Shown: positions 46,404-47,357 of the stretch, in pieces
How the letters are laid out: each line of letters opens with the position of its first letter
Numbering within the stretch: the first letter of the stretch is position 1
Assembly (NCBI RefSeq): GCF_949769285.1
Contig: NZ_OX458331.1
Span: 1,116,001-1,180,000 of the forward strand
DNA: 64,000 bases
Direction: 5' to 3'
Origin: Anaerococcus sp. Marseille-Q7828
GTDB lineage: Bacteria > Bacillota > Clostridia > Tissierellales > Peptoniphilaceae
Notes under the pieces: generated by a model
The model's input: only the letters and a program-made list of their open reading frames with translations
Databases searched by the model: none
What the model was told of the DNA's origin: nothing
Position numbers and translations under genes: made by a program

Positions 46404-46958
46404 ATGAATTCTTTTACAAGTTTTGAACTTTCTATACTAAATGCTATACAAAAAATAAGAAGCCCATTTCTAGATGAATTTATGGTTGCCATATCTTCTC
46501 TAGGAAATGGGGCAATACTTTGGATATGTTTAATAATAGTATTCTTATCAACAAAGGAATACAAAAAAATGGCACAAATAATGATTATTGCCTTTATAGG
46601 AAACTTAATAATTATAAACCTGGGCCTAAAAAACATCGTTGATAGAACAAGGCCATATGAATACGTTAAGGGACTAGAATTATTAATACCAAAAGTAGGA
46701 AATGCCTCATTCCCATCAGGACACAGCTCATATGCTGCCACATTTGCGACAATTATACTATTTATGGGCAAATCAAAATCACTAAGAATATTCACCTTAG
46801 TTTTGGCTATTTTAATCTCATTTAGCAGGCTATACCTCCACGTCCACTTTCCGTCAGACGTTCTAGCAGGTATAATACTTGGCATTGTAATAGGAATATT
46901 ATCAATGAAATTTTATTTTTCGGGATATTATAAAAAACTGCGTTTACAAGGCAAATAA
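46404..46958 (+). CDS. PAP2 family phosphatase
   Basis: A 184-residue membrane phosphatase of the type that recycles undecaprenyl diphosphate or dephosphorylates phosphatidylglycerol phosphate. The three PAP2 motifs are complete: KNIVDRTRPYEY, FPSGHSSYAAT (catalytic histidine) and SRLYLHVHFPSDVLAG. Five or six hydrophobic helices surround them. It begins one base after the CapA stop codon and is probably cotranscribed. Together with uppS it could serve the lipid-carrier cycle, though the real substrate needs assay. Confidence 0.9.
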   Translation: MNSFTSFELSILNAIQKIRSPFLDEFMVAISSLGNGAILWICLIIVFLSTKEYKKMAQIMIIAFIGNLIIINLGLKNIVDRTRPYEYVKGLELLIPKVGNASFPSGHSSYAATFATIILFMGKSKSLRIFTLVLAILISFSRLYLHVHFPSDVLAGIILGIVIGILSMKFYFSGYYKKLRLQGK

Positions 46959-46971
46959 AATATGGTATACT
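46943..46971 (+). promoter_or_regulatory. Promoter of tRNA-Leu and the GC-rich hairpin region
   Basis: TTTACA (46943-46948), a 17-base spacer and TATACT (46966-46971), overlapping the 3' end of the PAP2 gene. The expected start is near 46978, eleven bases before the mature tRNA. Confidence 0.75.
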
Positions 46972-46988: not shown

Positions 46989-47075
46989 GCCGGTGTGTTG
47001 GAATTGGCAGACGAGACAGACTCAAACTCTGTTGTCCACCAGGGCGTGTGGGTTCGAGTCCCACCACCGGCACCA
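46989..47075 (+). tRNA. tRNA-Leu (anticodon CAA)
   Basis: An 87-base class II tRNA. The acceptor arms GCCGGTG and CACCGGC pair perfectly, discriminator A72-type base and CCA are encoded, the T-loop reads GGTTCGAGTCC, and the anticodon stem ACAGA/TCTGT holds loop CTCAAAC, giving CAA (reads UUG). The long variable arm (TTGTCCACCAGGGCGTG) is as expected for leucine. Confidence 0.97.
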
Positions 47076-47080
47076 TAACT

Positions 47081-47305
47081 CGCCTCCCCGGCGCAGAGAG
47101 GGGTCGTGCCCTATAGGCACGAAACAACCGCAACGAAGTGAGGACCTAAAAATCGCCGAAGGCACAATTTAAACAAGCCCGTCCGGCTAAGAGAGGACCC
47201 TCCACGGAGTGGTCGTGCTTAAGCACGAAGCCCGCGCGGCTAAAGGAGCGCTCGCGCCAACAAGCGCGAAATAACCGCAGACCCGTAGGGTCGAGGACCA
47301 AAAAA
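47081..47305 (+). ncRNA. GC-rich array of short hairpins downstream of tRNA-Leu (candidate structured RNA)
   Basis: About 225 bases that are clearly more GC-rich than the rest of the window, with no open frame of note. They contain many small stem-loops: TCGTGCC/GGCACGA (47104-47122), GCC-GAA-GGC (47155-47163), GCC-CGTCC-GGC (47177-47187), the palindrome TCGTGCTTAAGCACGA (47213-47228), GCC-CGCGC-GGC (47230-47240), TCGCGC/GCGCGA (47252-47269) and GACCC-GTA-GGGTC (47280-47292). GAGGACC occurs three times (47140, 47193, 47293), AACCGCA twice (47126, 47273) and GGTCGTGC twice (47103, 47212). It lies between the tRNA and a terminator with no other promoter, so it should be transcribed. No known RNA family was recognised. 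Confidence 0.5.
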
Positions 47306-47326
47306 GCTTCAATACATATTAAAAAT

Positions 47327-47357
47327 GCTCATAATCCACAGATTATGGGCTTTTTTT
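47327..47357 (+). terminator. Terminator of the tRNA-Leu/hairpin transcript
   Basis: GCTCATAATC pairs with GATTATGGGC (one wobble) around CACA, followed by seven T. It predicts a primary transcript of roughly 380 bases. Confidence 0.88.

Follow-up and report, generated by a model that had tools for sequence, protein, structure and literature searches.

Bacteria commonly carry small dispersed repeats and, to our knowledge, what moves them and what they target is mostly unknown. Several described systems come close to the repeats analysed here. BOX elements of Streptococcus pneumoniae consist of fixed boxA and boxC ends around boxB repeats and are modular and dispersed, with an unproven mover (PMC3049150). 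REP sequences are single stem-loops of 20-40 bp tagged with GTAG (or CGTC) and go together with RAYT transposases (PMC3733652, PMC3116915). Rickettsia palindromic elements of about 150 bp have been described for the most part from genes, into which they are inserted in frame (PMC10969869), and MITEs such as RUP and Correia/NEMIS (PMC2229807) are likewise small, non-coding, folded and dispersed.

Here, we analysed a GC-rich patch behind a tRNA-Leu(CAA) gene of Anaerococcus sp. Marseille-Q7828, located in a window of 64,000 nucleotides (positions 1,116,001 to 1,180,000 of contig NZ_OX458331.1), to which unlabelled coordinates refer. With a probability of roughly 0.6, we read the patch as three arrayed members of a genus-specific family of mobile repeats, small, non-autonomous and dispersed, which would be recognised as folded single strands and whose 5' edge would creep to gene ends. 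By analogy, the family is best read as functionally like BOX/REP/RPE repeats, yet it shows none of their defining features that were applied as tests. Like BOX, it is modular and dispersed, has variable tandem units that would be folded as RNA if transcribed, and can disrupt or extend genes. Compared by description, it differs in that its modules occur in any order around a pseudoknot core and its arrays adjoin tRNA genes, 5S genes or stop codons; the order boxA-(boxB)n-boxC was not found in Anaerococcus arrays. With REP and REPIN sequences it shares tiny palindromic units, many copies, clustering and a probably non-autonomous nature, but its unit is a pseudoknot with two hairpins, its consensus bears no GTAG tag at either end, no Y1 enzyme tracks it, and it has almost no G-T pairs, which are often seen in GTAG repeats (PMC3733652). 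An in-frame insertion in a protein gene (a transposase gene of A. provencensis) recalls the Rickettsia palindromic elements; however, the Anaerococcus units measure about 28-80 nt (a pseudoknot plus up to two hairpins) and lie mostly in intergenic regions beside RNA genes, with one intragenic site followed. In contrast to MITEs, the 3' ends (...GCACGAA or ...GAGGACC) do not repeat the 5' end (AACWAGCC) in inverted form, and there is no clear target duplication. The best sub-threshold Rfam match, the L10 leader RF00557, covers the last module plus the terminator and has ACCG.AGAC...CGAGG in common with them, but scores 27.5 bits, below the cut-off of 44, with part of the score contributed by the terminator, and no rplJ lies nearby.

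Modules behind tRNA-Leu(CAA)

All features of the locus lie on the plus strand. The tRNA-Leu(CAA) gene (46989-47075; ARAGORN and Rfam) encodes its CCA end. As had been proposed in a preliminary description of this DNA, it is preceded by a promoter-like signal (46943-46971; sigma-70-like hexamers TTTACA-17-TATACT, a consensus match only), and the patch is followed by an intrinsic-terminator-like hairpin with a T tail (47327-47357; hairpin 47327-47350). Judged from these signals, the tRNA transcript probably extends through the array to the terminator, with the array as its trailer. The GC-richness claimed for the patch is real: the stretch 47081-47305 has a G+C content of 59% compared to 34% for the whole window, a value as high is found in only 3 of 2551 sliding 225-nt windows, and the fold of the patch is far more stable than that of dinucleotide shuffles (z = -4.5; 0 of 200). 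The recurring words were all found at the positions given before, namely GAGGACC at 47140, 47193 and 47293, AACCGCA at 47126 and 47273, GGTCGTGC at 47102 and 47211, and the stem TCGTGC/GCACGA at 47104/47117 and 47213/47223.

We found that the stretch 47077-47302 consists of three tandem modules in the order B-A-B, each opening with an H-type pseudoknot that is followed by two hairpins at this locus. The pseudoknot has the pattern GCC-Y-[abcd]-GGC-N4-6GA-[d'c'b'a'], in which the loop tetranucleotide pairs with a later complement and a linker of 4-6 nt ends in GA. In module A, it leads to CCAY-GGA-RTGG and then to another hairpin, capped by a GNA triloop; in module B, to a hairpin of 5-7 bp with a CNANA loop and to AAYAACCGCA-hairpin-GAGGACC. 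Covariance models R1 (for B) and R2 (for A), built from copies of the same genome plus two from a sister genome, recover exactly these three modules in the window. The first copy of B (47077-47149; R1, 73.9 bits, E = 2e-14) comprises P1 (47081-47084/47090-47093), the pseudoknot CCCC/GGGG (47086-47089/47100-47103), P3 with the loop CUAUA (47104-47110/47116-47122) and the outer CC/GG pairs of P4 (47128-47129/47142-47143), which enclose a GCA...GA internal loop and ACGAAGU. A spacer of 22 nt with the mini-hairpin GCC-GAA-GGC (47150-47171) follows, which also joins B to A at loci L010, L011 and L052. Module A (47172-47229; R2, 76.2 bits, E = 7e-20) is composed of P1 (47176-47179/47185-47188), the pseudoknot GUCC/GGAC (47181-47184/47195-47198), P3 with CCAC-GGA-GUGG (47202-47212) and P4 with UCGUGC/GCACGA (47213-47218/47223-47228). 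The second copy of B (47225-47302; R1, 75.5 bits, E = 9e-15) has P1 at 47229-47232/47238-47241, the pseudoknot GCGC/GCGC at 47234-47237/47248-47251, P3 at 47252-47257/47264-47269, the outer pairs of P4 at 47275-47276/47295-47296 and the inner stem GACCC-GUA-GGGUC at 47280-47292.

This anatomy revises the modules drawn in the preliminary description. Their frame, AACCGCA-insert-GAGGACC, does occur as a frame of words, but the repeat is larger and the frame makes up just its 3' half, and the third GAGGACC (47193), taken as the end of a parallel module, is actually the 3' strand of a pseudoknot. A kink-turn in the AACCGCA...GAGGACC internal loop was rejected since, judged by eye only, the GA/GA geometry fails across variants. 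In several species, a second repeat (AGTTYTCTGGAYTCRC...CTCAGARATGAAAAAT...CCACCC..GGGACTA) was observed at the same place inside the P3 loop of module B (L229 3111-3253, L230 1345-1486, L052 2140-2260). At four loci (L045 1990-2570, L046 2020-2620, L048 1950-2200, L049 1890-2120), large repeats measuring about 500-550 bp were seen, whose ends are similar to ACTTCGACYYAGGGG and which contain the pseudoknot in a longer stem.

Covariation and distribution

The structure was tested on 97 distinct rows of A and 42 distinct rows of B found by the models; many rows are related, and covariation cells are thus not independent events. In the modelled helices, 95-96% of the cells are paired, 15-16 pairs have both sides changed and no shuffle equals the covariation score. 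The pseudoknot helix had been omitted from the models and therefore did not guide the alignment. It is paired in 98.2% of the cells in A (30 double-change cells in 97 distinct rows) and in 96.9% in B (36 double-change cells in 42 distinct rows), and its covariation score was reached by 0 of 500 shuffles; the covarying pairs are GUCC/GGAC, GUGC/GCAC, CUCC/GGAG and CCCC/GGGG. Homologous stems with compensatory changes in relatives, which mark a structured ncRNA, were hence found, in line with the earlier view of the patch as structured, and they are also compatible with pairing in DNA.

The strong covariation would also suit a functional RNA trailer, whose pseudoknot and hairpins would act in the transcript, e.g. 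by blocking 3' exonucleases or by steering the 3' maturation of tRNA, 5S and groEL RNAs, and which would be kept as useful to the host. The same holds for unpaired positions, which are strongly conserved (the GA before the pseudoknot strand, the CNANA loop and the GNA triloops). The type of pairing speaks against such a trailer, as G-U pairs are nearly absent, unlike in transcribed stems. P1, pseudoknot and P3 contain 18 of them in 1582 cells, compared to 101 in 1452 cells for tRNA acceptor and T stems at the same loci, i.e. they are about six times rarer (Fisher p about 1e-17, with rows that are not independent). Frequent G-T pairs in REPs have been read as a sign of RNA function (PMC3733652). 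The near-absence of G-U pairs in the Anaerococcus family hints that pairing matters in DNA, or that blocks were exchanged recently.

When compared to its own genome of 1.95 Mb, the 235-nt stretch yielded 34 matches, all but one partial, and both models together gave about 44 non-overlapping copies there (E <= 1e-3). Model A found copies in 25 of 31 Anaerococcus genomes and model B in 18 of 31. Recurrence in Peptoniphilaceae, suggested earlier as a check, therefore holds for Anaerococcus, in which copies lie next to tRNA genes and elsewhere, but not for the rest of the family, as neither model matched any of 99 other genomes. A 36-nt pattern of module A, searched over 84,980 species, returned 32 stretches, all of them from Anaerococcus, and a class-wide search of 391 genomes with model B gave one chance-level match (E = 0.0099). 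No match to the module was found in phages, plasmids and viral contigs, and a phage or plasmid origin was rejected on this basis. Among 4227 Rfam families, tRNA alone reaches its gathering threshold in the patch, and tRNA and rRNA alone pass on 17 module-bearing loci; the open-access literature held nothing on such repeats in Anaerococcus. The family of repeats, rightly suspected to be new, is previously undescribed and confined to the genus Anaerococcus.

Filled and empty sites

By comparison of filled and empty sites and of arrays at one site, copies were shown to move and modules to exchange. A DDE transposase gene (Pfam DDE_Tnp_1, DUF772) has an intact frame of 523 codons in L259 and L261, two copies in one relative, and is interrupted by the bare pseudoknot AACTAGCCCGTCCGGCTCGTGGAGGACC in L252, L254, L256 and L258. 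In the A. provencensis gene (L253, L255), the pseudoknot lies in frame, turning KPAYNIQLASASG into KPAYKKLARPARGGLASASG; as this gene occurs with the pseudoknot in several copies, the insertion appears to have multiplied with the IS. The site can be read either as a duplication of CTAGC or as a replacement of CATTCAAC. One operon has a module within its 23S rRNA intervening sequence, another operon of the same genome has none there, and 3' fragments of 5S and tRNA-Met are split by modules, with 5-8 nt lost or replaced. The 23S intervening sequence itself measures about 200-260 nt and was placed by eye at helix 45 (L042 8150-8570, minus strand; L051 5700-6020, plus strand). An automated search for empty sites by downstream flank returned mostly repeats of the module itself.

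Arrays were seen in the orders AB, BAB, ABAA, BBB and AA. Behind groEL, they start 0-6 nt past the stop codon in 12 of 30 species and are lacking there in 18; related species have the strings AB, ABAA, BAB, AA or B, one array is decayed, and mapping on the tree requires three changes, two or more of them forced by well-supported branches. At the tRNA-Leu locus, BAB, BA, B, decayed remnants (G026, G013) or nothing was found depending on the species, and a 54-nt half module is located in the first B here and in the last B (B2) of the sister species G029. Behind intact tRNA genes (tRNA-Asp, tRNA-Met), we also observed units of about 160 bp repeated in tandem, every one of which closes with a copy of the tRNA 3' end (L053 2650-3150 and L042 3000-3560, both on the minus strand).

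Several of these observations argue against a host-useful RNA trailer: one copy lies within a transposase ORF, the tRNA-Leu copies of G026 and G013 have decayed, and six members of the genus have no A copy. The preliminary description had left two readings side by side, selfish palindromes and a tRNA trailer or separate ncRNA. Dozens of dispersed copies, filled and empty sites, the transposase insertion, antisense copies and module turnover favour the former, i.e. mobile repeats, and disfavour a dedicated RNA gene. The modules could also be debris of a larger element, each unit being an end or internal domain shed from the GC-rich dispersed repeat of 500-550 bp. The same pseudoknot does occur in L045, L046, L048 and L049, within a GGGGC...GCCCC stem, but it also occurs alone and bare, and A and B modules are found without the rest of the large repeat. 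Descent in either direction would be possible; we consider such debris most improbable.

Position rule and proposed recognition of the modules

Neighbouring genes were called by ARAGORN and as simple ORFs. Sense arrays with a tRNA as nearest upstream gene start -1 to 3 nt after the tRNA in 33 of 43 cases, and of 15 antisense arrays, 13 are no more than 4 nt away from the 5' end of a tRNA gene (tRNA-Cys, -Asp, -Arg); on the far side, the gap between module and next tRNA varies widely (16-521 nt). The rule is thus polar, with the module's own 5' end adjoining the tRNA or 5S gene or, in groEL, the stop codon. When one site family per gene was counted by hand, flush sites were sense in 14 cases versus 3 antisense (binomial p = 0.013). 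Owing to this sense bias and to the placement of arrays between gene end and terminator, as at tRNA-Leu and groEL, the RNA trailer is the main rival of a mobile repeat; the antisense copies at the 5' ends of tRNA-Cys, -Asp and -Arg speak against it, and overall we regard it as unlikely. Insertion at hairpin ends was dropped as a general target rule, as upstream folds at the non-tRNA sites lie no nearer to the junction than in random windows.

Under the preferred reading of a mobile repeat, the folded single strand of the unit would be recognised by some mobilising or recombining activity, with DNA more likely than RNA because of the near-strict Watson-Crick pairing. At each insertion or turnover, a few bases 5' of the unit would be replaced, and the 5' edge would creep to the nearest selection-protected sequence (tRNA end, 5S end or stop codon) and halt there. 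Such replacement and creep, modelled on the basis of three junctions, would account for both tRNA orientations, the stop codons, the 5S ends and the free 3' side. Some findings count against the reading: the sense lean at gene 3' ends is not required of a purely DNA-level element and is expected under RNA function, the persistence of groEL arrays over many species could reflect selection, the hairpin-end test at non-tRNA sites was negative, no mobilising enzyme emerged among Y1 transposases and reverse transcriptases, and there are neither terminal inverted repeats nor a clear target duplication.

Which activity could move such units? A Y1 (HUH) tyrosine transposase, recognising the folded single strand of a REP-like element, would fit the folded DNA units, the high copy number, the clustering and the Watson-Crick-only pairing, and such transposases occur in 21 of 31 genomes of the genus. 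However, the module-rich genomes G026, G015, G004 and G022 gave no Y1 match, the GTAG tag is lacking, and the Y1 genes resemble multi-copy IS200-type genes rather than single-copy RAYTs, which makes this origin highly unlikely. In Anaerococcus genomes, genes for Y1 transposase and for reverse transcriptase do not follow module counts, and both are absent from several module-rich genomes; neither was retained as mover, as presence fails to track copies.

More tentatively, the pseudoknot alone may be the minimal mobile element. A single strand of 28 nt would then suffice for insertion, recognised as folded DNA by some enzyme, and would build exchangeable arrays with the 5' edge against functional ends of tRNA, rRNA and highly expressed protein genes; we hold this to be possible, though doubtful. 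The family offers a compact pseudoknot unit, clean filled and empty sites and a sharp positional rule, with the 5' edge at gene ends and on both strands of tRNA genes. Together with the fast exchange of modules in culturable human commensals, the recognition of such repeats becomes testable, and the arrays show how tRNA and groEL transcripts may gain folded tails.
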